Shown here: positions 19,748 through 39,653 of the stretch, one piece after another
Numbering within the stretch: position 1 is the stretch's first letter
Layout of the letters: every line of letters starts with the position of its first letter
Source: Olivibacter sp. XZL3
Lineage (GTDB): Bacteria > Bacteroidota > Bacteroidia > Sphingobacteriales > Sphingobacteriaceae
Direction: 5' to 3'
Assembly: GCF_004368405.1 (NCBI RefSeq)
Contig: NZ_SBJH01000016.1
Coordinates: forward strand, 1-39,653
DNA length: 39,653 bases
Position numbers and translations under genes: made by a program
Notes under the pieces: model-generated
Database searches by the model: none
The model's input: only the letters and a program-made list of their open reading frames with translations
What the model was told of the DNA's origin: nothing

Positions 19748-19849
19748 TAATGTTTTAGTTAAAATAGTATGGTTTCCATAAAAAATCCACCTTCCAGTTT
19801 ACATCATGTGCTTGGAAGATGGATTCGGATACTTTTATGAAAATAGTCG

Positions 19850-22614: not shown

Positions 22615-24926
22615 TTATTCTTCCGGTAAAACGACATCCTTTCTTCGGTTTTCCGGACTCACTATTAATTTTTTGATTTTCCCATTCTTCACTTCCACTT
22701 CAACGGTCGTCCGCTTTGGGGCATGCAGCTTGAACACTACATCACAGGCCAACGGCCACGACGGAAGCACATAGATTTTATCTCCTACGGTTTGCAACAA
22801 CATTTCCTGCAAACCGATCATACCCGAGCCGCCCCAATTATGGTCGGGCACCCAATCAAAACCCGGCCCCCAGAACGCAGGAAATCGACGAGGTGCATTG
22901 CTTAATTTTAATCGATTTAATCGTAACGCTTCATCGGTTAAGCCGAGACGAGCAGCGAATATGTTATCCTGCTTCCAACCTAAATGGCTTCTAAACTTTA
23001 CCGCATCCGGATCGAACCAATAGGTATTACGAGCGGTGTCCAGTCCACTCTTTCCAACACCATATATTCCCCAAGGAAACACCGGATACAGTTGAGGCGC
23101 TTCGGTATTATTTACGCGTTCCCATAGTTTTGCAGGAGCCAATAGGGTATGGCTTTCAATGGTCCTATAGCTTAAGGGGGGGATACGGGATAATAGCTGT
23201 TTCCATTCGGCCTTTCGTGAAGGAAGCAATAATGTATCAGAAAGCGCTAACAATCCTTCCGTAACGGTTTTCAAAGCGGCTATGGTGGAATTTGCATTGT
23301 AAGCCATTTTATAGGTTTCGGCAGCCGATCCGGGATAAAGCACAAGATGTTCATCTCCATCCAGAGCCTTCCGTCCTCTCTTCTTCGCTAGGTATTGATA
23401 ATGTTCATCAAAAAACTGTAAACAGCTTTCTATTAAAGGTACATATGGACGAATATCAGCACCGATATATCGATGGCTCTCCAATACCATCATGCAGAAC
23501 TCCAGCACCGTGTCCCACTGATATTCCAACCAAGCATTATACTCCATCCCCCGATCAAAATCGGCCGGCCGCTTCCAACCATATTCAGCGGGGTTCGGCA
23601 GGCCAAAATTTTCGATTTGCTCGGTAAAGCTAGCGCCCTTGTGCCCCCAATAGGTCTGCGTCCGTAGCGCTGCGTTCTTCAACATGCGTTGATAAAATTC
23701 GAAAGCAGGCTTCATTAAATCCGCATCGCCACTCTTTAGCATGGGCCAGTATACCAAACGTTGATTTTGAGCCGTATGGGTGCCTCCACCCCAGTTTCTG
23801 AAATCAGGGGTATAGGTCATTGCCGTATCTATCCTCGACGGATCATAGGTAAAAAGTCCGCCATTAAATTTCGTTGGATACTCACCGTAGGCGTTACAAG
23901 CAAGCATATACCTAAACAACTGATAATTCCGGGCCATTTGCCAATCAACATCGCCAGTATCTTTGTTCCCCGGCTTGATGCAGATATAACTTCGATCCCA
24001 AAAATCCCTCCACCATTCTTTGTTTTTAACAGCAGCCTCTTTGTCTTTCTTCGTTTTAGCCAAGAGCAACAATTCTTTCTTCCAAGTATCTACCGATTTT
24101 TCTTGTTTTGTGTGAAGGTAAATTTTGATTGATTGTTTTTTTGTTAGTTTTTCGCTCTTTAGACACCATCCCTTATAATCTGTATCTTGGTATTTGCCTG
24201 AAGTTTCACCGGCTTGCTGCATGCCTTCACCAACTAGGTATCCACCGAAAGTTAAGTTCGACAAAGGATTGAATAACTGATTTTTAACACGATCCAAGCC
24301 CTGTTGTTTCACGGTTACATCAAAAACAGTACTGTCCCCATTTCGGTGATAAAATAAAATCCCATTAACACCTTCATAATCTACCCTATCCCTTTTTGTG
24401 ATGACATCACCAGGTGGCGCCCATTTATAGGAATTTGTGTTATTTTCCTTACCCTTGGTAATACGATCTTGATGTCGCCAATTTTCGTAAGTAGCTGTTA
24501 CTTGCATCGGTTTATCAGCCGTAATGTCTACATGAACGATCGGTGCAAACACCTCCACCCACAAGTTGATCTTTGCCGAAATCTCTTCATTCTTCGCTTC
24601 AATATATACGGCCCCCTCCCGAAGCTTTAACTCCTGTTTAAAGGTGCCACCATGAAATGGATTAGGAGATAAGCGCAATCTAACGCGTCCTAGTTTCAAT
24701 AATGTATTGTTTTCGTCGAAGGTTCCGCTGCGCGCCATGTAAAACAGCAGCTCATCGTTTTCGGACCACACGTTGAGGCCGACGTCCCCCCCTCCACAGG
24801 GCATCGATTCACTCGAATTAACACTCTGGCTATTCCATACAACATTATAAGAACTCAGGTCTACTTCTTGACCGGCGGATAACTTCCAAAGAAAAAAAGT
24901 AATACAATGAAATATTTTTGCTTCAT
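22615..24926 (-). CDS. DUF5703-family probable glycoside hydrolase, frameshift in signal peptide
   Basis: The main frame (from an ATG at 24804) gives 729 residues beginning MPCGGGDVGLNVW, LLKLGRVRLRLSPNPF: a DUF5703 N-terminal beta domain followed by an (alpha/alpha)6-barrel-like region (YNAWLEYQWDTVLEFCMMVLE, GPGFDWVPDHNWGG) resembling GH95/GH65-type enzymes. The same frame is open upstream with GQEVDLSSYNVVWNSQSVN, normal family sequence, so 24804 is not the true start. A signal peptide MKQKYFIVLLFFFG begins at 24926 in a different frame. One extra base in the T7 tract (A7 at 24892-24898 on the plus strand) would join them into a normal secreted enzyme. So the gene carries a one-base indel: mutation, phase variation or sequencing error. 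Last gene of the large locus; activity unknown. Confidence 0.8.
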
Positions 24927-25039: not shown

Positions 25040-27079
25040 CTAATAACTAACCGGTATCCAAACCGTCATATCCGTATGCCCTCGATTGCCCCAGGTAAAA
25101 TAAGGCACAAATCGAAGCGGTACTGTTTCCTTAACGCCTGTGTCTATTTTCCGATAAAGAGCACCGTCCCAATTTTGCTGTTGATCGATTACTTTCGCCA
25201 CCCCGGTTAAAGAGGTAACAGGACAGTTGTCAATCAATTGGTTTTCTGTCTGAAAGGTCATATCAGCGGGAATTGCTACATCGAATATGGTCTTGCCTCC
25301 AGTCAAGTCCGAAGATTCCAAACAATACACAATAGGTCCGCGCTTCACGGCTACTTGGTTTCTGCTTTCCTCTACCAATGGATTCGCCTGCATCAAATGA
25401 GCCTCCATGGGCATCTTTAATAACACAACATCTCCTTTTTCCCATTTTCTTTTTATCCCCGCATAGGAACCTGGCTTCACAACTTCGTTGATATCTTCTC
25501 CATTTACCTGAATCGTAGCTCGGTCCGCCCATCCGGGAATACGCAAAAACAAAGAAAAATCATCTTTAACAGCTTCTTCTACCACAACTTTGATCGCCCC
25601 ATCCCAAGGATAAGCCGTTTCCTGTTTTAATTTAACCGTACCCCCATTCGGCAATGACGTATTTAACTCACTTCCACCGTATAGATTAATCCATATGCCC
25701 TCATCCGAAATACTATAAACATAACTATGCACTTCGGCAAACGTTCGTACTACATTGGGTGGGCAACAGTTAGACAATGCGATATAAGGCACTCTATCTT
25801 TCGACCATCGCTGCTTAAAAGGCAATTTATCCGAGTAAGCGAGCGGATTTGTATATAAAAACCGTTCTCCATCTAAGCTGATGCCCGACAGCACGCTATT
25901 ATAAAGTGCCAGCTCCAAAACGTCAGCAAACTTTGCGTCACCTGTTAGCAGTAGCATCCGCCAATTCCATAGCATATTTCCGATGTTGGCACAAGTTTCA
26001 TTATGAGCGGTGAAGTTGGGTAATTGGTAGTCGCGTCCATAAGCTTGATGGATCTTCTGCACCTCTTTGGGATCATAAGAGGTACCATCCGGCGAAACCC
26101 CATCATATAGCGAACCACAACCACCCGTTATGTACATTTTATGTGATGTAACGTCCTTCCACATTTTATGGAGTTGATTAAAAAGGCTGGTATCACCTGT
26201 CTCGGCATAGACGTCCGCAACACCGGCATAGAGGTAATTCGCGCGCACCGCGTGTCCCATTACCTTTTGCTGTTCCCGAAAGGGAATTCGATCCTGATTA
26301 TCGTCGGTTCCGTCCTCAATCTGGCCTTTTATATCAATAAGGTGTTTTGCCAGCTCCAGGTATCGTTTATCGCCTAAAGTACGATACATCTCAACTACAC
26401 CCATATAATGAGAAGGACAAATGGCATTTCGCGCTAAGGTTGGTGAAGCCGATTTGTAAAACCGGTATAAATAATCGGTAGCTTTAACGGCGACATCCAA
26501 TAGATTACGTTTTCCGGTAGCTCGATAATGTACGCAGGCGGCCGTCATTAAATGCCCAATGTTATAGGCTTCAAAACTTAAGCGATCTTCAAATTGATTT
26601 TTTACACCTGTTTTGCGTTGCTGAATCATCGACAGGGTATAAATGTAACCGTCTTCCCGTTGCGATAGGGCAATAGTCTTGATAACTTCGTCCATTTTCT
26701 TGTCCAGTGCCGGATCTTTCGTAACGGCATATATACTTGCCACCGCTTCCAACATCTTATAATAATCACCATCATGAAAAGATGGTCCGCTATGACTCCC
26801 GGTATCCAAACCGGCGGCTATTTCAAAATTCTTATAAGCATGACTGACATGTTCATCATTATAAACATTCCATAGTTGCGGAACCATATGCTCCCTGCAT
26901 ACCTCAAATCGGTTTGCCCAAAATCCCTCCGTCCAATGTACCTGGTCCATCCCCACCGGCTTTAACTTAGCATAAGGGCTTTTCGATGTGTTTACTAAAA
27001 AAGCGTCCTGAGCCTTTAAGTTGAAGATGGAGAATACTCCAAATAAAACAAGGATTACTACATTAATTTTTTTTATCAT
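25040..27079 (-). CDS. GH127 beta-L-arabinofuranosidase-type glycoside hydrolase
   Basis: This 679-residue exported enzyme (signal peptide ending LKAQ) belongs to GH127 (formerly DUF1680), whose characterised members remove beta-L-arabinofuranose. The (alpha/alpha)6 barrel contains DRLSFEAYNIGHLMTAACVHY, GHAVRANYLYAGVADVY and TGGCGSLYDG. The zinc/nucleophile site is visible: Glu361 and Cys363 in HNETCANIG, and Cys438-Cys439 in LSNCCPPN. These correspond to the zinc-coordinating Glu/Cys and the nucleophilic Cys of the family. C-terminal beta domains follow. Length is normal. Related families GH137/142/146 share the fold but this motif set fits GH127. It lies between GH106 and DUF5703 genes, as in pectin-side-chain or arabinan loci. 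Confidence 0.9.
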   Translation of the reverse strand: MIKKINVVILVLFGVFSIFNLKAQDAFLVNTSKSPYAKLKPVGMDQVHWTEGFWANRFEVCREHMVPQLWNVYNDEHVSHAYKNFEIAAGLDTGSHSGPSFHDGDYYKMLEAVASIYAVTKDPALDKKMDEVIKTIALSQREDGYIYTLSMIQQRKTGVKNQFEDRLSFEAYNIGHLMTAACVHYRATGKRNLLDVAVKATDYLYRFYKSASPTLARNAICPSHYMGVVEMYRTLGDKRYLELAKHLIDIKGQIEDGTDDNQDRIPFREQQKVMGHAVRANYLYAGVADVYAETGDTSLFNQLHKMWKDVTSHKMYITGGCGSLYDGVSPDGTSYDPKEVQKIHQAYGRDYQLPNFTAHNETCANIGNMLWNWRMLLLTGDAKFADVLELALYNSVLSGISLDGERFLYTNPLAYSDKLPFKQRWSKDRVPYIALSNCCPPNVVRTFAEVHSYVYSISDEGIWINLYGGSELNTSLPNGGTVKLKQETAYPWDGAIKVVVEEAVKDDFSLFLRIPGWADRATIQVNGEDINEVVKPGSYAGIKRKWEKGDVVLLKMPMEAHLMQANPLVEESRNQVAVKRGPIVYCLESSDLTGGKTIFDVAIPADMTFQTENQLIDNCPVTSLTGVAKVIDQQQNWDGALYRKIDTGVKETVPLRFVPYFTWGNRGHTDMTVWIPVSY

Positions 27080-27507: not shown

Positions 27508-27513
27508 CTAATT
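27474..27513. repeat. GCTAATTA tandem repeat at the GH106 stop
   Basis: Three adjacent GCTAA(T/C) units of an 8-base period, then a fourth after a 16-base interruption. The last copy contains the stop codon of the GH106 gene. Confidence 0.6.
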
Positions 27514-30500
27514 CACTTCTTCTTCCATCAAACGCACCGTCCCAATAAGGCCGGCCTTCAACAAAGGCTGCCCTTCTAAACGGAAAGGTGCCGTTGTTTG
27601 CGTAATGCGTTTCTCCACTGGCAATGCCTGATCACCGATCAGTCGATTAGCCCAAGTATTCGTTACGGCTATCTCCAATTGGTTCTCGCCTTTCCGTAAC
27701 GCTTTACCAATATCAACACGGTATGGCGCCGTCCAAAGTGTTCCACAGTCTACGCCGTTTACTTTTATAGTAGCGATATTCGCCACTTCTTCTAACTGTA
27801 ACCATACTGGTGAAAGCTGATCTCCTTCCTCCCATTGAAAAGCGGTTCGATAATGCGCAGTACCGGAATAATGCCGTATCTCCGGATCTTCAAACTCGCT
27901 CCAGCTTCTTAGCTCTTTTAATGTAATTGCTTCTTTTGGTCCGCCGTAATCGGGATCAAACCTAATATCCCAAGGATTCATTAATTTCTTTGTCTCGCTT
28001 AACTGTGGCCAGTTTCTTGCTGATTTAGCTTCTTTTAAGTTGGTTTCTTCCTTAAAAAGGACAAATAAAGAAGCATTAGGAGCAAATTGAAGCGGGATCT
28101 CCGTACGATCCCCTACAATACGCCATTCGCCCAAGGGCTTCCCGATATTACTTACCGGATCATATAGGTACGGCACTTTACCTGTTATCCGGAATGACAC
28201 GAGCAGTTTCCGATCTTGCTCCTGTTGATTGGTCAAAAAGTAAATATCTTTTTCATCGGTTCGCCGATGGTTAAAGCCCAAGCCAGTGGCTTCTGAACCA
28301 TCCAATTCACTAAAACGAACATCAGGTTGCACCCCGAATTGATTAAATGAAGAGAGCAAATAGGGTGCCTTGATAATCATACCCTTCCCGAGCTTTTTAA
28401 AGAGCACAGATTTATTGCCTTCTTCCATTTGCTCGAAAGAGCCGTCCCAGATAAGTGCTGTTATTCGATTCAATTCAGTATCTACCATCGGGAAACCCGA
28501 TAATCCCAGCGTACGCAGTGGTTTATTACTTAGTACAACTTTGGCACCTTCAGTGATAAGCTGTTTCAGTTTACGCGCTACTTCCAAGCTCATGGCTTGA
28601 TCATTCGGCTGCAAAGCATGCTTACCCGGGAGTACCAATATTCCGTAAGCTGCGCCGGTAGGAAGTACAATGCGTCCGTCCTCAACTTTTGCCTGCAACA
28701 ATATTTCGGGATTAAAAGAATCATAAGCATAACCGCGCAATGCATTTATCCAATCTTCAGGCTGCACCATATTCGCACTTGTACTTACCCCGGCGATTTT
28801 CTGTATGGGCAAGCCTTTATTAGCTAACCGGGCCTGCTCCGTCAATACACGCTTTTCACCAAAGATACCCGGTAGGGTTGAGACCATGCGATCAGGAAGA
28901 ATGGCTCTTCTTGGGAGCTCTTCACCGGTAAAAACAGCCAAATCGGTAACCGGCGTCCCTGCCTGCAGCAGCTGTTGTACACGTGTTGCATAGTCAACCC
29001 ATACTTTTCCTTGCTTCCACCAAGTTTGATCACGCTGAAAGTACAGGCCAATACTACTAAGTGTCATTCCAGGTTTTCTATTCAGCCATGGATTATGTAC
29101 GTAAATGTGATAGACCAACCGATTTACGCCAAGGGCATAATTTCGATCTTGCAATGTTTTGAGATTTCCGGGATGCTCATCCCACTCCATTCGTATTTGA
29201 GTAAAGGCCTCCGCCTGCACAAGGGGTTTACCATAGATATGGGCTCCGGATACCGCATCGAGCACATCGTTGAACTTGTCATGCGAAGGGCTTCTTAACC
29301 AGAATTCTCCCATAGGTATATCTACCGTTTTAAAGTGAGCCATGCCATCAGTCAACATAACGGGTGCGGTTGTCTCTGCACTGAAGAGCGCCCCATGTTT
29401 GTGCGTAAAGGCTTTTATCGGCTCAAAGAAATTAGCATTGACCAGTTCGGCAATGGTTTGGCGAATATCATATAGATACCGTTCTGAAAAATCGGCACTT
29501 TCTATCGGATAGCCTGCCATAGCAGGTAGATAATCGACCGGGTCATATCCCCTTCTTTTTTTAAATTCATTGCGAAAAACGGGCGACCAGTTTTGGCTAC
29601 CGCATTCCCAGCTATCGACGTGAAAGATCTTTAAAACTTGATGAGCTAAACTATCACCTGCCGTATCAATGGCTTTCTGTAGCCAGCCCTGCAACTGTAC
29701 TTCAACTGCCTTCGGGTTCATCTTATCACATTCCAATCCTTTACCGTTTCCGGCAGTTTCGTTCATATGTCCGGTTGAAGTATGCCCCATGCGTAAAATC
29801 CTCCATAATCCTCCGTGGGGCTTCCATGTCAAGGTACCATCGGCCTGCATAAAAGAAGAGATATTAATCAGCTGGTCTTTCTTGATGCAATCGGTGTCTG
29901 CAATTTGCGTGGAGGTACTAGGCTCGCTAACTCGCCAAACTACACCCGATTTACCTTCATATTGATGAATGCGCGGTGTCGATAACAGATGAATGCCTGA
30001 TAATTTTAAGCTAGGCTTCCATTTTGCTGCGTCCAGGTCTTCTCCCCCTGGTTCGCTGCCTTCCGGGTTATACACAAAACGAAAATATCGGGCAGTAATA
30101 GGCTCTGTTGCATGGGTAAGCCCAACATCCCAGTCCAGCCAACCTGCACGTGGTGGTTTGAGGCGACTAACCTCCCGAAAATGCACACCATCGTTACTTG
30201 TCTGAATAATGAGTCTGCCTGATTGATAGTTAAAACCTTCGACATCTATTTGGATCGCGCGACAAGTGAAAGGTTGTTTATAGCTATACTGAATCCAGCA
30301 GGATTCTTTGCTACCAAAATTTTTCTTATTTCCTTTAATCGTTAAGAATTGAGCTTCGACCCCCGTACTGGTGCTTACAGTGGGTTGGTCATTGTAGGGC
30401 CGATCTTTAACCGGCAGAGCAAAAGTCGCTATATCACGGTAATAACCTTGGTAGGCTTCCGGTTGGGGCAGTGCCAGCTGCACATCTCTCCCACCAGCAA

Positions 30501-30945
30501 TCACCGTATCTGTCCATACCACTTTCTGCATCGATAACTCCGGACTTATCCAGTTTCCACCAGCAGTCGCAAAGCCATCTCCCGGTAATAGCGCGATTTT
30601 TATTCCGATACGATGGGCTTCCTCTAAGGTAAAGCGTATTAAATTCCACCAAGCCGGTGTCATCGTTTCGATTACCGGCTCATATAAAGGAGGATCTGTT
30701 TTGCCCTTAATCGGTGCTAAATAAGCACCTGCGATACCTATCTCCTTCATCGCTTCCAAATCAGCTGTAATCCCCTCCTTGGAATAAGCGGAATGCATCC
30801 AATACCAGAACACCCATGGCTTAGCTTGTTCAAGACCTTCCCCTTTTACATATTCCATATGGGAGGACAGCCTTTTATTCTGCGCAAAAATATCTTGCGA
30901 GCACAGTAAGAATAAAAACAAAAACCAACTCCCTTTTTTTTTCAT
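27508..30945 (-). CDS. GH106 alpha-L-rhamnosidase-type glycoside hydrolase
   Basis: This 1145-residue exported enzyme has a signal peptide ending DIFAQ. The opening PWVFWYWMHSAYSKEGITAD, LEAMKEIGIAGAYLAP and GDGFATAGGNWISPELSMQ are hallmarks of GH106, whose known members are calcium-dependent inverting alpha-L-rhamnosidases. Central blocks HVDSWECGSQNWSP and KPLVQAEAFTQ carry candidate catalytic Glu residues. A galactose-binding-like beta domain is inserted near residues 205-310 (CRAIQIDVEGFNYQSGRLII) and a second lies at the C-terminus (IKVNGVDCGTLWTAPYRVD). Length is normal for GH106. It lies 164 bases after the symporter gene and 428 bases before GH127. Rhamnose-containing pectin, hemicellulose or gum side chains are likely targets. 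Confidence 0.88.
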   Translation of the reverse strand: MKKKGSWFLFLFLLCSQDIFAQNKRLSSHMEYVKGEGLEQAKPWVFWYWMHSAYSKEGITADLEAMKEIGIAGAYLAPIKGKTDPPLYEPVIETMTPAWWNLIRFTLEEAHRIGIKIALLPGDGFATAGGNWISPELSMQKVVWTDTVIAGGRDVQLALPQPEAYQGYYRDIATFALPVKDRPYNDQPTVSTSTGVEAQFLTIKGNKKNFGSKESCWIQYSYKQPFTCRAIQIDVEGFNYQSGRLIIQTSNDGVHFREVSRLKPPRAGWLDWDVGLTHATEPITARYFRFVYNPEGSEPGGEDLDAAKWKPSLKLSGIHLLSTPRIHQYEGKSGVVWRVSEPSTSTQIADTDCIKKDQLINISSFMQADGTLTWKPHGGLWRILRMGHTSTGHMNETAGNGKGLECDKMNPKAVEVQLQGWLQKAIDTAGDSLAHQVLKIFHVDSWECGSQNWSPVFRNEFKKRRGYDPVDYLPAMAGYPIESADFSERYLYDIRQTIAELVNANFFEPIKAFTHKHGALFSAETTAPVMLTDGMAHFKTVDIPMGEFWLRSPSHDKFNDVLDAVSGAHIYGKPLVQAEAFTQIRMEWDEHPGNLKTLQDRNYALGVNRLVYHIYVHNPWLNRKPGMTLSSIGLYFQRDQTWWKQGKVWVDYATRVQQLLQAGTPVTDLAVFTGEELPRRAILPDRMVSTLPGIFGEKRVLTEQARLANKGLPIQKIAGVSTSANMVQPEDWINALRGYAYDSFNPEILLQAKVEDGRIVLPTGAAYGILVLPGKHALQPNDQAMSLEVARKLKQLITEGAKVVLSNKPLRTLGLSGFPMVDTELNRITALIWDGSFEQMEEGNKSVLFKKLGKGMIIKAPYLLSSFNQFGVQPDVRFSELDGSEATGLGFNHRRTDEKDIYFLTNQQEQDRKLLVSFRITGKVPYLYDPVSNIGKPLGEWRIVGDRTEIPLQFAPNASLFVLFKEETNLKEAKSARNWPQLSETKKLMNPWDIRFDPDYGGPKEAITLKELRSWSEFEDPEIRHYSGTAHYRTAFQWEEGDQLSPVWLQLEEVANIATIKVNGVDCGTLWTAPYRVDIGKALRKGENQLEIAVTNTWANRLIGDQALPVEKRITQTTAPFRLEGQPLLKAGLIGTVRLMEEEVN

Positions 30946-31109: not shown

Positions 31110-32390
31110 TTACTCACTCACTCCTCTCCATCCATATGCCAATACCACTACAAAACACACCAAAGGCACCAGGTAACCAATCTGTATACTATCGCCGGTA
31201 TAATCAATTAAACTACCCATTCCATAGGGCAGAATAGCACCTCCGACAATGGACATAATAAGCCAGGATGAAGCAGCCTTCGTTTGATCTCCCAAACCTT
31301 CAATGCCCAGTGCAAAAATGGTGGGAAACATAATGGACATAAAAAAACCGATTGATCCCAATGCGTATACAACGGACATGCCTTCACCCAAGATAGCTAC
31401 CAGACAGAGAAGAACCGCAAACAAAGTAAAGAGGATCAACAGCTTGCGCGGTGAAAGAAAGCGTAGTAAAAAAGTTCCTACAAACCTGCCCAGCATAAAT
31501 AAGAAACCGTATATACCTAAATAATAACCGGCGGTCTTTTCATCTACGTTCGCTCCTTGCTGTGCCATACGAATAAAAAAGCTTGTAATACAAACTTGAG
31601 CTCCAACATAAAAGAATTGTGCTACCACACCGAGACTAAGATTCCGATACTTCCATACCGCAAAAAAGTTTCGCTTTTTGATATCCTCTTGCTGTTGATT
31701 CACCTCCGGAAACTTTACGAAAAAGAACACCACCGCTATTAAAAGCAATATCGATCCCAAGATAATATAAGGTAGTTTCACTGAGGATGCTTCCTCCATA
31801 AAATAACGCAAACGTTCGGTCTCCTGCATAGCGGCCAAGGCATCTTTACTATATTCCTTTCCGGACAATATAAAGTTGGCTCCTACTATGGGCGCTACCA
31901 TAGCAGCCAAACCGTTAAAGGAGGCCGCTAAATTTAATCGGCGCCCTGCCGTGGCAGGACTCCCCAAAACGGCAGCATAAGGATTGGCCGTGGTTTCCAA
32001 GATAGCTAAACCGCAACCTATGATAAACAGTGCGAATAAAAAAATCTCATAGCTCAAATTGTTGGCTGCCGGTACAAAAAGATAAGCTCCGCTCGCAAAA
32101 ACAAGTAAACCAATAATAATACAGCGTTTGTATCCGAAGCGCTTCAGTAGCATTCCCGCCGGGATGGCCATGATAAAGTAGGCAAAAAACACCGATGTGT
32201 CGACAAGTGCAGATTGACTATTGGTCAAATTACAGGCCTTTTTCAAATGCGGAATCAGAATGGAATCCAAATTGTGAGCCATTCCCCAAAGGAAAAACAA
32301 GCCTGTTACCAGTATAAAAGGCAATAGGTATTTTTTTGTTGTTTGGCTAGTTGTCGATTGAGCTAATGGCTCATTTACTAAAATTTCCAT
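31110..32390 (-). CDS. FucP-family sugar:proton symporter (MFS)
   Basis: This 426-residue inner-membrane transporter has about 12 helices. FFLWGMAHNLDSILIPHLKK at the first helix, ALVDTSVFFAYFIMAIPAGML, and the motif GLAILETTANPYAA identify the FHS/FucP branch of the major facilitator superfamily, which imports L-fucose, glucose/galactose and related hexoses or deoxyhexoses with protons. A cytoplasmic N-terminal tail of about 20 residues is Thr/Ser-rich. It is the last gene of the tightly packed seven-gene block, starting 14 bases after the MaoC stop, and probably imports the sugar released by the neighbouring hydrolases. Confidence 0.92.
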   Translation of the reverse strand: MEILVNEPLAQSTTSQTTKKYLLPFILVTGLFFLWGMAHNLDSILIPHLKKACNLTNSQSALVDTSVFFAYFIMAIPAGMLLKRFGYKRCIIIGLLVFASGAYLFVPAANNLSYEIFLFALFIIGCGLAILETTANPYAAVLGSPATAGRRLNLAASFNGLAAMVAPIVGANFILSGKEYSKDALAAMQETERLRYFMEEASSVKLPYIILGSILLLIAVVFFFVKFPEVNQQQEDIKKRNFFAVWKYRNLSLGVVAQFFYVGAQVCITSFFIRMAQQGANVDEKTAGYYLGIYGFLFMLGRFVGTFLLRFLSPRKLLILFTLFAVLLCLVAILGEGMSVVYALGSIGFFMSIMFPTIFALGIEGLGDQTKAASSWLIMSIVGGAILPYGMGSLIDYTGDSIQIGYLVPLVCFVVVLAYGWRGVSE

Positions 32391-32404
32391 CGGTCGGTTG
32401 GATG

Positions 32405-32848
32405 TTAAGGTTTCTTTTTAACCAACAAAATATGATCAGCAACCAGCACAACCTCTCCACGTTGATTGATGATCTCTACATGCTCCGTTACAGTGCCATA
32501 TGCCGGATTTTTTGCATCACTTTTATTACTTATGGTAACCTCCGCGTGAATTGTATCGCCGATAAAAACAGGTTTAATAAAACGTAGACGGTCATACCCC
32601 TTAGAGAAGGCCTCTGGGTTTATTTCAGAAGCGGTTAAACCAATACCAATGCTAAATACCATCGTTCCGTGTGCTATACGTTGACCGAATGGTTGCGTTT
32701 TACACCACTCTGCATCTAAATGATGTGGAAAAAAGTCGCCGGTATGCCCCGCATGAACAACGAAGTCTGTCTCTGTCAGCGTTCTTCCGAGGGTAATGCG
32801 CTTATTTTCCAAGTGATAATCTTCAAAAAAAATAGATTTAAAGTACAT
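32405..32848 (-). CDS. MaoC-type hot-dog hydratase
   Basis: This 147-residue cytoplasmic single hot-dog protein has the (R)-specific enoyl-CoA hydratase signature [12 protein letters not shown], with candidate catalytic Asp38 and His43 (spacing of five, as in PhaJ/MaoC), followed by [16 protein letters not shown]. Such enzymes add water to an enoyl-CoA; mesaconyl/itaconyl-CoA-type hydratases are similar in size. It lies 15 bases after the oxidoreductase gene and 14 before the symporter gene. With two CoA-transferases in the same operon it most simply acts on a CoA ester they form. The substrate is unknown. Confidence 0.9.
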
Positions 32849-32863
32849 GATAACCGGTTTATG

Positions 32864-33946
32864 TTAGAATTCCTTTTGTATAGATATTCCCCCTTGATCG
32901 CTACTCTGGTAAGCCGCTTCTACCACAGCCATCGTTTTAATTACATCTTCAACGTGGGTAGTTAACACATTGCTTTCGCCATTCTTGTACCGCATTAAAG
33001 CGGACATACTTCCTATAAAAGCATCCGGGAACCAAGATCCTTCGATAGCCAGACATTGCCATTGAGGCTCCTCCCCTTTTTGGCATATACAATACTCAAA
33101 AGCGTCCGGAACGCCGTGTGGATAATTCATTAACAGGCCCATCTTAACTTTTATTGCTCCTTTTGTCCCTTCCCATTTGATATAACTTTCTTGGTGCTGT
33201 GGACCGAAATCGTGGTCGTGGTTGGTATTAATAACGGCACGTAGGGTATCTCCATAGTCAAGTATAATCGTAGAACGGGAAGAAGACAAACTTTTCGCGG
33301 GATGTTTTAATGTCTTTGCCAATACACTTTTCGGATCGCCGAGGAAGGAACGAATTAGATCGATATAATGAATACTGTGATATTGTATTTCCAAGCGTGG
33401 GTGTACCTTCACCAACGGAAAAAGCTCCCAAGGTGTTTGTACGGTAACCTTAACTTCCATATCGTATAGCTCGCCGATAAACCCTCCTTCAATTAAATAG
33501 CGAGCAGCATTTATATAGGGTGCTACACGCAACTGACAGTTAATGGCTGCAGCTAGTCCTTTATCCCTGCAAACGGCTAAAATCTCCTTGCTTTGCTGAA
33601 AATAGTCTCCCATAGGCTTTTGAATAAGCACCGCACTTTCGTCCGGTAACTTCTTCAAAGTTTCCACAAATTGATCGGGCATAATGGTAATGTCGTAAAC
33701 CGCGTTAGGTGTTGCCTGTGCAACAGCCGCTTCTACGGAATTATATACATGTGGTATGGCAAATTGCCTGGCCAATCGTGTTGCTTTTTCTTTGGTCCTA
33801 TTCGTGATACCAATGACGTCAAATCCGGCTTTCTTATAGGCTGGTAAATGAGCGTCTCCGACAATTCCTCCCGCACCGATCACAATGATCGGCAATGGAC
33901 GTTTCGGCAAAACAGCTTGATAGGGTATTTGTATTTCTTTATTCAT
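32864..33946 (-). CDS. Gfo/Idh/MocA-family NAD(P)-dependent oxidoreductase
   Basis: This 360-residue cytoplasmic dehydrogenase has a Rossmann N-terminal domain (IIVIGAGGIVGDAHLPAY, about 20-37, with GAGGIVG) and a C-terminal alpha/beta domain used for substrate binding (HSIHYIDLIRSFLG). The usual EKP motif that positions the catalytic Lys reads QKP here (Lys110 in VLIQKPMGD), a tolerated but less usual variant. Family members oxidise or reduce sugar hydroxyl/keto groups. Its start overlaps the end of the solute-binding-like gene by 8 bases, so the two are translationally coupled. Confidence 0.92.
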   Translation of the reverse strand: MNKEIQIPYQAVLPKRPLPIIVIGAGGIVGDAHLPAYKKAGFDVIGITNRTKEKATRLARQFAIPHVYNSVEAAVAQATPNAVYDITIMPDQFVETLKKLPDESAVLIQKPMGDYFQQSKEILAVCRDKGLAAAINCQLRVAPYINAARYLIEGGFIGELYDMEVKVTVQTPWELFPLVKVHPRLEIQYHSIHYIDLIRSFLGDPKSVLAKTLKHPAKSLSSSRSTIILDYGDTLRAVINTNHDHDFGPQHQESYIKWEGTKGAIKVKMGLLMNYPHGVPDAFEYCICQKGEEPQWQCLAIEGSWFPDAFIGSMSALMRYKNGESNVLTTHVEDVIKTMAVVEAAYQSSDQGGISIQKEF

Positions 33947-35174
33947 GATCCAATATATTGATATCCTCTTGTGCCCGTTCTAATAAAGAGGCAATCACCT
34001 CATCTCCATTAAGCACTTCCTGTATTAACTGATCGATTCTAGAAGCTATAGCAGCCCAATTCTTTTTCCGAGGCAAGGTCTGCGATTGCTCATGCAAGAG
34101 CTCAAGTTTATAATAGTAAGGGATCATTTGATTCACAAAAGCGTCCTTCCAGGTTGATAAACGGCATCCAATGCCGCCGTTTAGCGTAAGCTGTTTGTCC
34201 ATCTGCCCACTAACGGCAAAGCGAATAAAATCATAGGCGATGGAAGCATACTTACTACCGGAGCCAATGGTATAGAGCCAATAGACATTCAGGGATGTTC
34301 CCTGTCCCTTATTTCCTGCCGGTACCGGTGCAATGTCAATTTTCCCTCTTAATGCCCCTTCTTTTGTTACCTCGCAAACCGAAGCAAAACCAAACCAATT
34401 CACCATCATTGCCGCTTCCCCCCGTGCAAAGGCGGCACCTGCCTGTACCGACTCATATTGAAAGGAGTTGGGGTGAATACAGTCCGACTGCGATACCAGG
34501 GTTTTATAAAACTGCAAGGCTTTCTCCGCTTCCGTTGTATTTAACCGGATTTTTCCAAGCGCATCCACTAAATCCCCCCCTCTACTCCATAATTGCAGGC
34601 AAAAATCAAATACAGCGTTATGCCCATCAGGATAGAGTGCCATCACACTTCCGTACAATTTATCTATTGGCCGATGGAAGAACTGTGCCACTTCCATATA
34701 TTCATCCCATGTTTGGGGGACTTTCAACTCTCTTTTGTATTGTTTGTAAAAGGCTGATTTATTTTCTTCTTGTTCGAATAGATCCTTTCTATAAATTAGG
34801 CATTCGGGTCCATCATGAAAAGGTAAACCGACCACTTGCTCATCAAAACACTGCATAGCAAGAAGGGACGAGCTCCATCCATCCGGATAATCTTCCGGTG
34901 GATTTGTCTGAAGCCAAGGTGTCAGATCACAAAGTGCATCGCTCGCATAGGCCTCACAGATCCAATCCGTATTGATATGAGCGACATCCCAAAGACCTTT
35001 TTTTAAACCTTGCTGCTGAATAGTTTCGTTATAAAGCTCATGTAAGTCCATAGCTACCAATTCGACCTCCACCGGGCAACCTGTCAGTTTAGCATAAGCC
35101 TCCCAAGCTTGCTTCATTGTCCGCTCAAATGGTTCGAACTTTCTCACCGCTATCCGTAGGGGTTTATGACTCAC
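33939..35174 (-). CDS. cytoplasmic family-1 solute-binding-like protein
   Basis: This 411-residue protein has the fold-level sequence of ABC sugar-binding proteins (SBP family 1/8): RIAVRKFEPFERTMKQAWEA, DVAHINTDWICEAYAS, DLTPWL, GLPFHDGPECLIYRKDLFEQ, AGAAFARGEAAMMVNWFG and YDFIRFAVSG. It has no signal peptide or lipobox. The start is well fixed: a perfect AGGAGG (35181-35186 on the plus strand as CCTCCT) stands 6 bases before the GTG at 35174, and an in-frame stop lies two codons upstream. No ABC permease or ATPase is in the window. It overlaps the CoA-transferase gene by 11 bases. It is likely to be a cytosolic ligand-binding partner, sensor or enzyme; the role is inferred. Confidence 0.85.
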   Translation of the reverse strand: MSHKPLRIAVRKFEPFERTMKQAWEAYAKLTGCPVEVELVAMDLHELYNETIQQQGLKKGLWDVAHINTDWICEAYASDALCDLTPWLQTNPPEDYPDGWSSSLLAMQCFDEQVVGLPFHDGPECLIYRKDLFEQEENKSAFYKQYKRELKVPQTWDEYMEVAQFFHRPIDKLYGSVMALYPDGHNAVFDFCLQLWSRGGDLVDALGKIRLNTTEAEKALQFYKTLVSQSDCIHPNSFQYESVQAGAAFARGEAAMMVNWFGFASVCEVTKEGALRGKIDIAPVPAGNKGQGTSLNVYWLYTIGSGSKYASIAYDFIRFAVSGQMDKQLTLNGGIGCRLSTWKDAFVNQMIPYYYKLELLHEQSQTLPRKKNWAAIASRIDQLIQEVLNGDEVIASLLERAQEDINILDHE

Positions 35175-36324
35175 GAGTCACCTCCTCTCCGAATTCCTTC
35201 CAAATCGACCCATTATCCTGCCCCAGTATCGGTGAGCCGAGCGAAGAAGTGAGATATTCACCATCGATTCGGATCGGACACCGCGTGGTTTGGTAGTTAT
35301 AACCGTCACGCATTGTTACGTTCTGTATCATCTCTAAGGTTTGGAAGCCTTCATGAGCCACCAGCCGATCCCAAGTTAATACATTTGCACACCATATGTC
35401 CGCCGGTTCCAAGATCTCTAACCATTGTTGAGTGCTTCCTCCTTTTAAATGCGTCGCGATAATCTGCTTTATCTCATCGCGCTTATCAAATGCATCAGAC
35501 ACCAATGGGTAGTTTTCGAGAACAGGGCATTTTAATAATTTGCCTAAAATCGGAATGGAGCCCATTGCTAAGGCGATGTAACCATCGGACGTCCGATAAA
35601 TTCCGTACGGAGCACCCAAATAGGCATGTGCATTATTCACTTTTGTTCGTTGAGGCAAAGCACCTCCGTCTCTATAAAAAGTCGTAATGGCTTCAAATTG
35701 AAAATCATAGGCTGTTTCCATCATGCTTACCTGCACGAGTGCCGCCTGTTCCGTGCGGGATTGTTGAATTAAACAAGCAAGTATTCCCTGCACAAGATTT
35801 GCTCCCGCCAACATATCGACTATAGACAGCCCCATAGGCACCGGACCATCATCCGCGTTTCCGCTTAACCAGGTTAATCCAGTAAGCGATTGCAATAACA
35901 AATCCTGGCCTGGCCGGTCCTTCCAGGGCCCTTCATTTCCGTATCCTGATATCTCCCCATACACGATACGTGGATTGACCTTTATAATCTCGTTGAAATC
36001 AAGTCCTAATCGTTCCATAACTCCCGGACGAAAGTTATGAATCATTACGTCGGCCTGCTTTAATAACCTCTTTATTAGAACGATATCATCCGGATTCTTC
36101 AAGTCAGCCGATAGACTTTCCTTATTACGGTTAATGGCATGAAAAACGGAAGACTCGCCATTCATAATCAAGTCCGACGTATACAGGCTTCTGCAAATAT
36201 CGCCCGTTATCGGTTTCTCCACTTTAATAACACGTGCGCCCAAATCCGCTAGGCGAAGGCTAGCCGATGGGCCAGATAAAAATTGGCTAAAATCAACAAC
36301 TAAATATCCTTCCAGTGGCTTCAT
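35164..36324 (-). CDS. CaiB/BaiF family III CoA-transferase (copy A)
   Basis: This 386-residue cytoplasmic acyl-CoA:carboxylate CoA-transferase has the class III features: MKPLEGYLVVDFSQFLSGPS, RLADLGARVIKVEKP, FHAINRNKESLSADLK, HNFRPGVMERLGL and GYGNEGPWKDRPGQDLL. The catalytic Asp170 sits in SIVDMLAGAN, matching the Asp169 position of formyl-CoA transferase. These enzymes form interlocked ring dimers and move CoA between carboxylic acids. It is followed by the solute-binding-like gene with an 11-base overlap and preceded by copy B with a single base between. About half the residues are shared with copy B by eye, so they arose by duplication. Substrate unknown. Confidence 0.92.
   Translation of the reverse strand: MKPLEGYLVVDFSQFLSGPSASLRLADLGARVIKVEKPITGDICRSLYTSDLIMNGESSVFHAINRNKESLSADLKNPDDIVLIKRLLKQADVMIHNFRPGVMERLGLDFNEIIKVNPRIVYGEISGYGNEGPWKDRPGQDLLLQSLTGLTWLSGNADDGPVPMGLSIVDMLAGANLVQGILACLIQQSRTEQAALVQVSMMETAYDFQFEAITTFYRDGGALPQRTKVNNAHAYLGAPYGIYRTSDGYIALAMGSIPILGKLLKCPVLENYPLVSDAFDKRDEIKQIIATHLKGGSTQQWLEILEPADIWCANVLTWDRLVAHEGFQTLEMIQNVTMRDGYNYQTTRCPIRIDGEYLTSSLGSPILGQDNGSIWKEFGEEVTRES
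35181..35186 (-). promoter_or_regulatory. strong Shine-Dalgarno fixing the start of the solute-binding-like gene
   Basis: The minus strand reads AGGAGG-TGACTC-GTG. Bacteroidota genes seldom rely on such sites, so the strong site together with the 11-base overlap argues for active reinitiation at a GTG and rules out a hidden upstream signal peptide. Confidence 0.65.
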
Positions 36325-36325
36325 C

Positions 36326-37471
36326 TTACACTATATTGAATTCAATGACAATATCGTCGGTGTCCTCACCTGCTTTCGGTGCCGCCTTAGCGGCATATAA
36401 CTTCTCGCCATTGATACGTATGGGATTTCGCGTTGTAATGAGCTTTTTTCCGTCAGCCAATTCCACTTCTTGTGTCATCTCCAAAACACGGAAGGCTTCG
36501 TGATCTAATGCTTGACGGTAATTGAGAACCGAAGAACACCAAATACCATCTTTTTCAAGGCGAACTCGCCAGTATTCGGTACTATTATGGCGAAAATGTT
36601 CGCCAAGTTTACTGATAATCTCATCTCTCTTTTCAAACCAAGAAATTTTATCTTGATAGGTGCTTAAGTCACAATCAATGCTGTTTCCGATTTTCATTAA
36701 GTCTCCCATGGCTAAGGTCAAATAGCCATCACTGGTTCGATAAATACCATAAGGAGCACTTAAATAGGCATGTCCGCTTCCCCGCATGACACTACGTTTT
36801 GGCAATTGTTTTCCATCGTTCAAAAAGGTGGTGAGTAGTTCAAACTGTAAATCGAGAACAGATTCCAATAAACTCACTTCAACCAAGACGCTTTTCCCTA
36901 TCTTATTACGCTTTAATAAGGCAGCCAGAATACCTTGTGCCAGATGCGCGCCGCATGCCATATCTGCTACCGCTAACCCAAAAGGCACAGGTCCATCGCT
37001 TTTAGTACCCGACAACCAACTAAGTCCCGACATGGCTTGTATTAATAAGTCCTGACCGGGCTTATTCGCCCAAGGACCTTTGCTTCCATAGCCTGTCACG
37101 ACGCCATAAACAATTCGGGGATTAATCTTACAGACATCTTCATAGGTTAGACCTATTTTCTCCATAACGCCTGGTCGAAAATTATGCGTCATGATATCTG
37201 CCTTCGCAATAAGCTGTTTCACCTTGTTAAGGTCTTCCGGGTCTTTCAAGTCGGCAGCATATGATTCTTTGTTTCGGTTGATCGTGTGGAAAACCAAACT
37301 ATCGCCGTCAATAAACAAATTCTTAATAGCAATTTGCCTTCCACCCTCACCTTTCCCCGGTCGTTCTATTTTAATAACTCGGGCACCCAAATCTGCCAGT
37401 TTAAGACCCGCTGTTGGACCGGCCATAAATTGGGCAAACTCTAACACCAATATTCCTTCTAATGGCTTCAT
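36326..37471 (-). CDS. CaiB/BaiF family III CoA-transferase (copy B)
   Basis: This 381-residue paralogue of copy A has MKPLEGILVLEFAQFMAGPT, KLADLGARVIKIERP, HNFRPGVMEKIGL and GYGSKGPWANKPGQDLL, and the catalytic Asp170 in AVADMACGAH. Both copies keep the active-site Asp, so neither looks like a dead partner; they may form a heterodimer or take two different acids. Its ATG overlaps the stop of the upstream solute-binding-like gene in an ATGA arrangement, and one base separates it from copy A. Confidence 0.92.
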   Translation of the reverse strand: MKPLEGILVLEFAQFMAGPTAGLKLADLGARVIKIERPGKGEGGRQIAIKNLFIDGDSLVFHTINRNKESYAADLKDPEDLNKVKQLIAKADIMTHNFRPGVMEKIGLTYEDVCKINPRIVYGVVTGYGSKGPWANKPGQDLLIQAMSGLSWLSGTKSDGPVPFGLAVADMACGAHLAQGILAALLKRNKIGKSVLVEVSLLESVLDLQFELLTTFLNDGKQLPKRSVMRGSGHAYLSAPYGIYRTSDGYLTLAMGDLMKIGNSIDCDLSTYQDKISWFEKRDEIISKLGEHFRHNSTEYWRVRLEKDGIWCSSVLNYRQALDHEAFRVLEMTQEVELADGKKLITTRNPIRINGEKLYAAKAAPKAGEDTDDIVIEFNIV

Positions 37472-38619
37472 ACTAATGCTTTAGACTCTTGATAGAGTTC
37501 ATTTAATTTTTGCAATACGGCCTGTTCGTTTCCGCCATCGATAATAAAATCGCGCACCACATCGCCTGCATGATCTTGGAAAAACATATGCCCATGGTAT
37601 CGTGGACGAAGGAAAGCACGCTCCAACGCCGGCAGCGTATTATAAAAGTAATTTCCGCTCATTTTATTGGTGTGTACCGACTGCCAAGCTTTCAAATGCC
37701 CCGGTTGACCGCCATTATCGAAATACAGCCCAAGTTGACAAGCAGGAGAAGCCACATAGCGTATATAATCCATTGCTTCTTCTAAATGTGCACATTTTGC
37801 AGACACCGCTAAACCGGTACCCCCTAAGGTACTCCGCATGTTCTCCTTCCCATCAAGACTTACCAGATCATGAAAGTCCAGTACGCGAGGGGCGTAGCCA
37901 TGACGCGCATAATTCGAATACCCATACGCAAAAGGGCAATAGGCAATCTCATCCGTATTGGTCATATATTCATAAACTTGAATGGGATTTAAATGATGGA
38001 AGCGCTCATCTACTTTGCTCGCCAACTGCTTGAAAAGTTGCAAAGCACGAATCCCCACGGCCTCACTGATAACGCGTTCATCTGTCTGGCACGGGTCTTC
38101 TCCCAGTGAGCAGCAAAACATGTAGAAACTCATTAGTGTATCAATCGGTATGAGCGCAAAACCTACTAATCCGCGGTCAGCGATTTCCAATAGCTCGGTG
38201 TAGGTATCGGGAAGTGTTAAGCCATGTTTTCTTAACAGATCGGGTCTGCTCGATGCGACCGGTGTAGCTGCATCAATAGCCAAAGCCCATTGATGACCAT
38301 CAAACTGATAACTTTTATGAGAATGGCCTACACTATTTTCTTCGAGATCTTTTAAAAAATGGGATGACAAATAGTCGTCTAAAGGTAAAATGCTTTTAGT
38401 ACGCGCCGCGAAACCTGCCCATGGATGATCGATGACCAATAAATCATAGCGCTCTGCCAACTCCTGAACCGAAAAATCGGCAAAGGCCTGTAATGAGCGC
38501 TTTTCCCATTTTATCTCGATTCCGGGGCGCATTTCGCTAAATCGCTGCGCCGTGGCATGCATAGGCGTAATCCCCCTGCTGTGATTCCAAGTGATTCCTT
38601 TCAGTTCAATTTGTTTCAT
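37468..38619 (-). CDS. second cytoplasmic solute-binding-like protein
   Basis: This 383-residue relative of family-1 sugar-binding proteins starts MKQIELKGITWNHSRGITPM and goes directly into the mature fold: FSEMRPGIEIKWEKRSLQ, YDLLVIDHPWAGFAAR, ILPLDDYL, GHQWALAIDAATPVASSRPD and LGGTGLAVSAKCAHLEEAMD. It has no hydrophobic signal segment or lipobox. The same frame is open upstream for only about ten codons without another start, so export by a classical signal is excluded. It is clearly different from the 411-residue protein and not a recent copy. The order is SBP-CoA-transferase B / CoA-transferase A-SBP, suggesting each transferase has its own binding-protein partner. Confidence 0.82.
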   Translation of the reverse strand: MKQIELKGITWNHSRGITPMHATAQRFSEMRPGIEIKWEKRSLQAFADFSVQELAERYDLLVIDHPWAGFAARTKSILPLDDYLSSHFLKDLEENSVGHSHKSYQFDGHQWALAIDAATPVASSRPDLLRKHGLTLPDTYTELLEIADRGLVGFALIPIDTLMSFYMFCCSLGEDPCQTDERVISEAVGIRALQLFKQLASKVDERFHHLNPIQVYEYMTNTDEIAYCPFAYGYSNYARHGYAPRVLDFHDLVSLDGKENMRSTLGGTGLAVSAKCAHLEEAMDYIRYVASPACQLGLYFDNGGQPGHLKAWQSVHTNKMSGNYFYNTLPALERAFLRPRYHGHMFFQDHAGDVVRDFIIDGGNEQAVLQKLNELYQESKALV

Positions 38620-38653: not shown

Positions 38654-39631
38654 CTAGAATTTTATAGCGTTGATTTCTTCTGTCTTTCGACTTATATTTC
38701 CTTTGAATGGCAATAAGTAAAAGCTGTAGTGATAGTTTTTGGCCGGCACTTGATATTGCGGTAAGGGCTGCGAAACGGTAGACCAGGAATCATTGCCTCC
38801 AACGCCCATTTGTATCAGGTCGATGTTCAACGTAATATAACCGGCATCTTTTAAAAGATGATGATGTTTAGCGGTTACAATCTCTTCTTCCGTATAAGGC
38901 CAGGCACTCATGCTTAGCAAGCTATCGGCAACAACCAACAACCCTTCATGGCCCGTATTTGTCAATCCCATCCAACGCACATCCGTACGGTTCGCATTTT
39001 CCTGTGGATAGACGTAAGGCTCGATGAACGTTTCAAGTGGTGCCTGATAAATACCGGCAGCAAACCCCGATCTCCGATCTACATAGTTTTCAAGAGGCCC
39101 CTTACCGTACCAAGTCAATTGATCGAGATTCCGCTTGATACCTCCTTGCATCCCCACCTTCGGTAAATTAGGGAGCTTATCGGAAGCTTCTAGCTGGTAG
39201 TTCACTTTTAAAACCCCGTTACCATTAAAAGTATAGCGGACCTGTACCGAGGCACTGTCTTTGATCAGACGATAGGTGCTGGTAACGCTTAGCTGTCCCT
39301 TTACCGTACTGTCAACAGATAAAGCTGTTAAACTAGGTTTGGCATCATACCATACTTTTAATAGCTTGGATGGCTTCCACCCTTTCCGATCGTTATCGGT
39401 TTGTGGACGGGTGAAATGGGGTAAAAACGGCTGCGCGATCTGCTCCGTTCCATTGCTTTTGTAAGAAATGAGTGCGCCATTCTTTTTACTAATAATGACC
39501 TCCGCGCCATTATCACTTTGCATAAGGACCAGCTCCTTATCCAACCGGCTTCTCACTTCCCCAAATTTGCGGGTGTAAATCGTCAGCAAAAAGTGGACAC
39601 GATATTTTAAAAACTTAAGGAGTGTTTTCAT
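38654..39631 (-). CDS. C-terminal domain 5 of a LacZ-type GH2 beta-galactosidase, 5'-truncated
   Basis: The product corresponds to the last domain (Bgal_small_N) of LacZ-type beta-galactosidases: NGALISYKSNGTEQIAQPFL, FTRPQTDNDRKGWK, LTWYGKGPLENYVDRRSGF and WMGLTNTGHEGLLV. The catalytic barrel with both active Glu residues is absent. The first 25-30 residues (MKTLLKFLKYRVHFLLTIYT) do not resemble any part of LacZ and are encoded by sequence resembling an IS3-family end. A TAA lies in frame a few codons before the ATG. So this is probably a LacZ remnant cut by an insertion; the 5' part lies outside the window or is lost. It may still be translated as the first gene of the operon, 34 bases before the next start. 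Confidence 0.7.
   Translation of the reverse strand: MKTLLKFLKYRVHFLLTIYTRKFGEVRSRLDKELVLMQSDNGAEVIISKKNGALISYKSNGTEQIAQPFLPHFTRPQTDNDRKGWKPSKLLKVWYDAKPSLTALSVDSTVKGQLSVTSTYRLIKDSASVQVRYTFNGNGVLKVNYQLEASDKLPNLPKVGMQGGIKRNLDQLTWYGKGPLENYVDRRSGFAAGIYQAPLETFIEPYVYPQENANRTDVRWMGLTNTGHEGLLVVADSLLSMSAWPYTEEEIVTAKHHHLLKDAGYITLNIDLIQMGVGGNDSWSTVSQPLPQYQVPAKNYHYSFYLLPFKGNISRKTEEINAIKF
39574..39600. mobile_element. possible IS3-family terminal sequence
   Basis: The 27 bases start with TG and end with CAAAAAGTGGACAC, the style of terminus found on IS3/IS150-group elements. It lies exactly where similarity of the downstream frame to LacZ stops. The element would extend to the right beyond the window. 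This rests on resemblance only. Confidence 0.35.
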
Positions 39632-39653
39632 CAAAAACGTTAGATTTAATTAT

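Follow-up and report, generated by a model that had tools for sequence, protein, structure and literature searches.

Class III CoA-transferases take CoA from an existing acyl-CoA, and together with hydratases they are known to act on small acids. In the carnitine system CaiB/CaiD, a class III CoA-transferase and a hydratase dehydrate a free acid while the CoA is recycled. SmtAB and BbsEF are heteromeric class III transferases, and we know of no solute-binding protein (SBP) partner for either of them. The oxidative L-fucose pathway runs through L-fucose dehydrogenase (FucDH), a lactonase, fuconate dehydratase (FucD), KDF dehydrogenase and an FAH hydrolase, and to our knowledge it contains no CoA-transferase, cytosolic SBP or MaoC protein. 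CoA-thioester catabolism of intact sugar acids does not figure among the textbook routes. Here we describe an operon from Olivibacter sp. XZL3 that combines two SBPs and two class III CoA-transferases with a Gfo/Idh/MocA oxidoreductase, a MaoC protein and a FucP-type symporter. It lies in a stretch of 39,653 nucleotides (the window; contig NZ_SBJH01000016.1 of assembly GCF_004368405.1, positions 1 to 39,653 of the forward strand), which makes up the whole of contig C109 in a genome of 5.36 Mb. The Creative Commons (CC)-licensed PMC literature, which omits most subscription papers, yielded no description of this gene set.

Like CaiB/CaiD, the locus has a class III CoA-transferase and a hydratase in one operon, and by analogy a net hydration or dehydration of a free acid without a synthetase may be possible. 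It differs in using MaoC instead of crotonase (an enzyme of the enoyl-CoA hydratase family occurs in two relatives, L123 and L134), in having one or two SBPs and in its deoxyhexose context. With the oxidative L-fucose pathway the module shares common neighbourhoods and a strong co-occurrence.

The operon and its proteins

The operon consists of seven minus-strand open reading frames (ORFs) running from 38619 to 31110.

37468..38619, minus strand: SBP1, family-1 solute-binding protein, 383 aa (Pfam SBP_bac_1/8)
36326..37471, minus strand: CoA-T B, class III CoA-transferase, first paralogue, 381 aa (CoA_transf_3, E 4.4e-93)
35164..36324, minus strand: CoA-T A, class III CoA-transferase, second paralogue, 386 aa (CoA_transf_3, E 2.5e-94)
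33939..35174, minus strand: SBP2, second family-1 solute-binding protein, 411 aa, GTG start (Pfam SBP_bac_1/8)
32864..33946, minus strand: Gfo/Idh/MocA oxidoreductase (Gfo), 360 aa (Pfam GFO_IDH_MocA)
32405..32848, minus strand: MaoC hot-dog hydratase/dehydratase, 147 aa (Pfam MaoC_dehydratas)
31110..32390, minus strand: FucP-type sugar:H+ symporter, 426 aa (TIGR00885 fucP, 367.8 bits, cut-off 280.4)

An ORF check of the window returned exactly the coordinates given in the first-pass annotation, together with its overlaps of 4, 11 and 8 bases and gaps of 1, 15 and 14 bases, and Pfam and NCBIfam models agreed with each of its family assignments. The best named match to SBP2 was from Olivibacter jilunii (93% identical), which has the same operon.

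The first-pass annotation had read both SBPs as lacking a signal peptide, and this held across their relatives. A simple hydropathy scan found a signal-like stretch in 0 of 120 SBP1 and 0 of 94 SBP2 ORFs, sets that include duplicate loci and a few over-long ORFs, and in 10 of 11 usable ABC/TRAP SBP controls. The control without a signal was annotated from a later start, and a twelfth was dropped as its reading frame was wrong. Both proteins begin near the first beta strand; in the window a stop codon lies two codons 5' of the SBP2 GTG start and only a short stretch separates the SBP1 ATG from the preceding stop. The first-pass annotation had also asked whether the SBPs stand beside ABC permeases elsewhere in the genome. 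This was not so among the genome's six PF00528 (BPD_transp_1) permeases, which were two PstC/PstA pairs (one PstA scoring just below its cut-off), a MetI and a betaine-type protein. None of the six was of carbohydrate type, with CUT2-type (PF02653) and other permease families outside the search. As there was no recognisable signal peptide and the PF00528 permeases were not of carbohydrate type, SBP1 and SBP2 are probably cytosolic. They thus share the SBP_bac_1/8 family and fold with the binding proteins of carbohydrate ABC importers and differ from them in lacking a recognisable signal peptide and a carbohydrate PF00528 permease and in having a CoA-transferase as neighbor.

AlphaFold (AF2) models of SBP1 and SBP2 had mean confidence scores (pLDDT) of 94.3 and 93.0. 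For each protein, the top 50 structural matches listed were ABC-type binding proteins, mostly for sugars and some for dinucleotides, and the ligands of the best PDB matches included maltose, trehalose and sulfoquinovose. SBP1 had 30 invariant columns across 63 sequences, including W11, H13, R15, W38, D64, D116, Y234, G266, G267, Q305 and P306, and in the model many of these appear to sit at strand-to-helix loops, the ligand-holding sites in such folds. A profile search of the window's genome found this one SBP1 and no paralogue.

The transferases were aligned after rows shorter than 300 aa or containing stops were dropped. The Asp column, which we take to be the nucleophile of class III CoA-transferases, was Asp in 68/68 sequences. 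A racemase role was considered and rejected, as 67 of the 68 had GQD and one had GLD in place of the GHD of racemases. The nearest solved structures to CoA-T A were YfdE and a formyl-CoA transferase, and the benzylsuccinate CoA-transferase 9fn0 was also among its PDB matches. As in SmtAB and BbsEF there are two adjacent paralogues, which formed two separate clades in a tree, and in five Hymenobacter loci the two were fused into a single ORF of 793-815 aa; this fusion argues for CoA-T A and CoA-T B forming a heteromer. The substrates of the operon are presumably different from those of SmtAB and BbsEF. Alphaproteobacterial loci have one transferase beside SBP1.

The Lys of the Gfo QKP motif was present in 96/97 relatives, with a gap in the remaining one, and the MaoC motif Asp and His, presumably the catalytic residues, were present in 89/89. 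MaoC matched PDB 4ffu (E 9e-65), a structure that we take to come from Sinorhizobium meliloti. The window MaoC was 61-71% identical to the alphaproteobacterial MaoC proteins listed, as compared to 34-40% for SBP1 and the alphaproteobacterial SBP1 rows aligned. A paralogue, MaoC2 (L141:3335-3856, L125:8262-8828 and others), kept the Asp and lacked the His in 11/11 aligned sequences, suggesting that MaoC and MaoC2 may form a heterodimer. MaoC2 was also seen with SBP2 and a GH29 gene in L048, L052 and L066, with no CoA-transferase in the stretch examined. In L123 and L134 an enoyl-CoA hydratase of another family follows the CoA-transferase and SBP1, which fits hydration or dehydration at the CoA level.

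Conservation and spread of the gene set

A scan with SBP2 as query confirmed 136 relatives, and the best 80 loci were kept for counts, which therefore lean towards loci with SBP2. Among the window and these 80 loci, SBP1, both CoA-transferases, SBP2, Gfo and MaoC were contiguous on one strand in 53/81, and the same order without MaoC was contiguous in 65/81. In the 80 loci, SBP2 was accompanied by a CoA-transferase in 76, Gfo in 75, SBP1 in 74 and MaoC-type proteins in 73 (the kind of MaoC in the window in 69). The first-pass annotation's expectation that these gene types travel together was therefore borne out across phyla, and loci with only one gene type were not the rule. FucP was present in 45 loci and an IclR-type regulator in 40. 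Other lineages have, in place of FucP, a RhaT-type symporter, which was found in 28 loci by clustering and 29 by similarity. One protein each was checked for the IclR-type and RhaT-type labels and the rest were assigned by clustering or similarity.

A second draw used an SBP1 profile against 296 genomes of the window's phylum, Bacteroidota, and found SBP1 in 16. In this draw (15 loci and the window) a CoA-transferase was near SBP1 in 15/16, Gfo in 13/16, MaoC in 13/16 and SBP2 in 9/16. Across all loci collected, SBP1 was directly beside a same-strand CoA-transferase in 97/99 SBP1 genes, counting L080, whose transferase had been masked by an antisense ORF. In the two exceptions the CoA-transferase was about 4.5 kb from SBP1 on the opposite strand (L122), or no CoA-transferase was found in 20 kb (L140). 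Four pairs of loci were duplicates by organism or species (L130/L031, L140/L059, L145/L041 and L082/L119). SBP2 was not found in L133, L134 and L140-L144, and SBP2, the second transferase and FucP were replaced or absent in L133, L134, L141-L144 and the Alphaproteobacteria. SBP1 and a class III CoA-transferase thus make up the tightest unit, whereas the presence of SBP2, of a second transferase and of the transporter varies. The claim that both SBPs and both transferases form one set thus stood for the SBP1/CoA-transferase core and did not hold for SBP2, the second transferase and FucP, which some lineages lack or replace.

Relatives spanned Bacteroidota, Balneolota, a planctomycete, an acidobacterial metagenome-assembled genome (MAG) and Alphaproteobacteria. 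The set or parts of it occurred in Planctomycetes bacterium CA13 (L061), a Bryobacterales MAG (L080) and Fodinibius (Balneolota, L059); in a Planctomycetota sample SBP1 was found in 1/294 genomes only, that one being the centre genome itself. In Alphaproteobacteria the unit was one CoA-transferase and SBP1, and in Pararhizobium and Roseibium a second MaoC-like protein precedes it. S. meliloti carries SBP1, CoA-transferase, Gfo and MaoC. A Streptomyces plasmid had an SBP1 relative with a divergent transferase. In the archaeon Halostagnicola an SBP2 relative (34% identical) was found with MaoC, Gfo, mutarotase, amidohydrolase, fucosidase and a divergent CoA-transferase; its plasmid had no SBP1 and its chromosome was outside the search. 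The module is carried by marine flavobacteria, soil and plant-glycan degraders and root symbionts.

Sugar-pathway context and flanking genes

The alphaproteobacterial and other plasmid loci were chosen by eye from the matches, and the gene tables available for them have gaps. Genes for an amidohydrolase, IclR, a sugar ABC importer, an enolase-family enzyme, L-rhamnose mutarotase, SDR, an FAH-family protein and L-fuconate dehydratase surrounded Gfo and MaoC in Roseibium, Pararhizobium, Nitratireductor and S. meliloti. The ABC importers there have their own SBP, signal-bearing in most controls. The CoA-transferase and SBP1 adjoined the Gfo/MaoC run in the first three and were about 18 kb off in S. 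meliloti, where MaoC is at 751761-752204 and SBP1 at 732447-733580 of pSymB (NC_003078); the Sinorhizobium cluster is presumably induced by L-fucose. One alphaproteobacterial operon had mutarotase, Gfo and MaoC contiguous, and Martelella had Gfo, CoA-transferase, SBP1 and MaoC in series with IclR, amidohydrolase and mutarotase immediately upstream.

Among Bacteroidota, L138 had an L-fucose dehydrogenase beside the operon (353.9 bits, cut-off 300) along with fuconolactonase-like and FAH-type genes (both under cut-off), an SDR and a Zn-dehydrogenase, and L139 had the same gene order, as judged by similarity. In L141 mutarotase, lactonase-like, SDR and FAH genes were co-directional in one run with the operon. 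Over the 296 genomes, an FAH-type hydrolase (E <= 1e-85) was found in 13/16 genomes with SBP1 and 37/280 others (odds ratio 28, Fisher p 8e-9, with no correction for genome relatedness). GH29 fucosidases occurred in the flavobacterial loci L006 and L022 and a sulfatase in L008. From these neighborhoods a 6-deoxyhexose is the most likely sugar, be it L-fucose or one closely related to it. The first-pass suggestion of a route for a sugar-derived acid was thus upheld as to its sugar-acid context and narrowed to a 6-deoxyhexose, as against uronate-derived acids in general.

The window's genome also has a second L-fucose-type cluster on contig C108 (L149:3265-10279). It comprises a separate FucP gene together with galactarate-dehydratase-like, SDR, FAH-type, lactonase-like and L-fucose dehydrogenase genes, the last scoring 407.9 bits (cut-off 300). 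Given this second cluster, the operon cannot simply be taken as the organism's fucose route. The gene of about 550 aa beside FAH was considered as IlvD/EDD and this was rejected, as both copies tested (L149 and L153) were galactarate-dehydratase-like, with scores of 249.6 and 292.7 bits under a cut-off of 730.85. ILVD_EDD was present in 20/22 genomes, as a single copy in 16 of them. The branches in a 25-protein tree of this family only partly matched the neighbor type (a 254-aa SDR-size gene or a gene of about 450-500 aa), so the roles of the ~550-aa copies rest on neighborhood and size.

The genes flanking the operon in the window were as follows.

38654..39634, minus strand: glycoside hydrolase family 2 (GH2) beta-galactosidase, C-terminal part, truncated by the contig end (Bgal_small_N)
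27508..30945, minus strand: GH106 alpha-L-rhamnosidase, downstream of FucP (PF17132)
25040..27079, minus strand: GH127 family protein, beta-L-arabinofuranosidase-like (PF07944)
22615..24804, minus strand: DUF5703 protein (PF18961)

The GH2 fragment lies upstream of the operon, 34 bases from SBP1, and a full-length GH2 has the same position in L001. The O. jilunii locus has a GH2 gene before the operon and genes of GH106 and GH127 size after it. DUF5703 proteins, which may be uncharacterised glycoside hydrolases, recurred beside the operon in L004 (3869-6205) and, by annotation, in L085 (7372-9564). SusC/SusD genes lie about 19 kb from the operon in the window, with other genes between, and adjoin the operon in L085 by annotation. 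At 16922-21073 of the window, a 941-aa TonB-dependent-receptor-like protein was seen by eye beside a 407-aa protein with a lipoprotein-like N-terminus, and this pair stands apart from the window's sugar genes. In Sphingobacterium L064 (201-2711) a GH141-type protein carried an L-rhamnose mutarotase (rhaM) domain at its C terminus. Mucilaginibacter L055 (14216-18918) had, directly downstream of the operon, a D-apionate-type set comprising a RuBisCO-like protein close to OiaX (517 bits, cut-off 700), a DUF1537-type kinase, an Asp/Glu racemase and an SBF transporter; such clusters appeared in 6-7 similar loci, with L055 as the one checked.

A possible CoA-dependent route and its alternatives

We tentatively read the operon as a branch of oxidative 6-deoxyhexose (L-fucose-type) catabolism that is cytosolic and depends on CoA, with carnitine-style CoA recycling and SBPs that capture the acid; we regard this as possible rather than probable. 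FucP, judging by its family, would import the deoxyhexose, Gfo would oxidise it, and a lactonase encoded elsewhere, with a candidate at C108, would open the lactone. The CoA-transferases, as a heteromer, would then load the free 6-deoxyhexonate with CoA taken from an acyl-CoA. SBP1 in the cytosol, joined by SBP2 in lineages that have it, may act as soluble partners that capture the acid, as their invariant residues and constant adjacency suggest. MaoC, with the second MaoC-like protein in some lineages, would take out water next to the thioester, and the transferase, by analogy with CaiB/CaiD, would move the CoA on from the product to a fresh acid molecule, which would make a synthetase and ATP unnecessary. 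The resulting 2-keto-3-deoxy acid would enter an SDR/FAH-hydrolase route to pyruvate and lactate, for which candidate genes are present in the same genome. The first-pass annotation had noted the absence of an acyl-CoA synthetase; this is no gap, because class III transferases use an existing acyl-CoA. Possible substrates are L-fuconate itself, one of its epimers, or a 2-O-methylated version released from pectin or algal glycans. More doubtful is the further idea that cytosolic sugar-binding proteins serve as substrate-presenting subunits of class III CoA-transferases, in a new kind of complex that would make the CoA thioester of a deoxy-sugar acid for MaoC dehydration or a methoxyl-type elimination.

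Several observations weigh against this proposal. Every FAH match was under the curated cut-off of the model (0/296 genomes above), so the hydrolase is assigned by similarity only, and G107, G154 and G286 have SBP1 and no FAH at E <= 1e-85. SBP1 relatives in Jannaschia, Pseudosulfitobacter and Streptomyces lay in contexts without a fucose-specific gene, and no L-fuconate dehydratase was annotated in the Thalassospira, Martelella and Qingshengfaniella stretches, where tables are incomplete. The L123 transferase fell outside the main clade, and L048, L052 and L066 have their SBP2, MaoC2 and GH29 genes without a CoA-transferase. The same side of the balance holds the dehydratase results. L138, L139 and L141 had raised the idea that the module substitutes for the fuconate dehydratase, and this was rejected, as genomes with SBP1 showed no dehydratase deficit: a dehydratase was within 10 kb of FAH in 7/13 genomes with SBP1 and 14/37 without (p 0.35). 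This comparison covered two families, with enolase-family counts taken among the matches listed, and absences in it are not proof because that list is incomplete at its weak end and many genomes are fragmented. Near L141 an enolase-family gene lies about 4-5 kb from FAH (G214 C3:135308 and 140376), so L141 may have its own dehydratase, and G206 and 22 others have neither SBP1 nor a dehydratase adjacent to FAH. Since several alphaproteobacteria have FucD beside the module and C108 holds FucDH, lactonase-like, SDR, FAH and galactarate-dehydratase-like genes together, the module must have an additional role. It adds to the known L-fucose pathway and is no substitute for the dehydratase everywhere.

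One such role would be the processing of a modified or epimeric 6-deoxyhexose, such as a 2-O-methylated sugar or a C2-epimeric acid, that the normal dehydratase cannot use and that the module feeds into the L-fucose route. The module occurs together with a dehydratase-bearing L-fucose-type cluster in the window's genome and in G025, G033, G170, G222 and G214, and with FucD in the alphaproteobacteria just mentioned. GH2, GH106 and GH127 flank the operon and GH141 occurs in L064, families that we take to belong to rhamnogalacturonan-II breakdown, and rhamnogalacturonan-II contains 2-O-methyl-fucose; the OiaX-like gene of L055 points the same way. However, no demethylating enzyme turned up, although no search was aimed at one, the alphaproteobacterial loci gave no sign of methylated sugars, and the glycan assignment is tentative. 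We therefore hold this explanation to be rather unlikely. Another explanation would make SBP1 and SBP2 enzymes that use the binding-protein fold, like cyclohexadienyl dehydratase and MqnA, or ligand sensors, and not partners of the transferases. SBP2 also occurs without a nearby CoA-transferase, and the invariant W11, H13, R15, D64, D116, Y234 and Q305 are largely placed by the model at the ligand-holding loops. This is unlikely in our view, as the 50 best structural matches of each protein were ABC-type binding proteins and SBP1 is almost never apart from a CoA-transferase.

The CoA steps might instead be directed at end products, lactate or pyruvate-derived acids, and not at the sugar acid, given that the known oxidative pathway terminates in pyruvate and lactate and that class III transferases with hydratases work on small acids. 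The contiguity of mutarotase, Gfo and MaoC in one alphaproteobacterial operon suggests early pathway steps, and lactate should need no CoA route in aerobes, making this quite improbable. That the SBPs, as members of an extracellular SBP family, follow some unrecognised export route and work with an ordinary importer is hardly credible, since none of their ORFs had an export signal, none of the genome's PF00528 permeases is of carbohydrate type and the alphaproteobacterial ABC importers possess their own SBPs.

If the proposed CoA-dependent branch is real, it would be a sugar-acid route across several phyla that was missed because its SBPs are annotated as parts of ABC transporters, and, for two conserved families, cytosolic work of SBPs with a transferase would overturn their routine annotation as 'extracellular solute-binding protein'. 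The strain 'A. marincola HL-49' is of interest here, and we take it to be an Algoriphagus, a genus of Bacteroidota. FucD is reported missing from the L-fucose pathway of this strain (PMC5507952), and the module bears on the missing fuconate dehydratase of that pathway.

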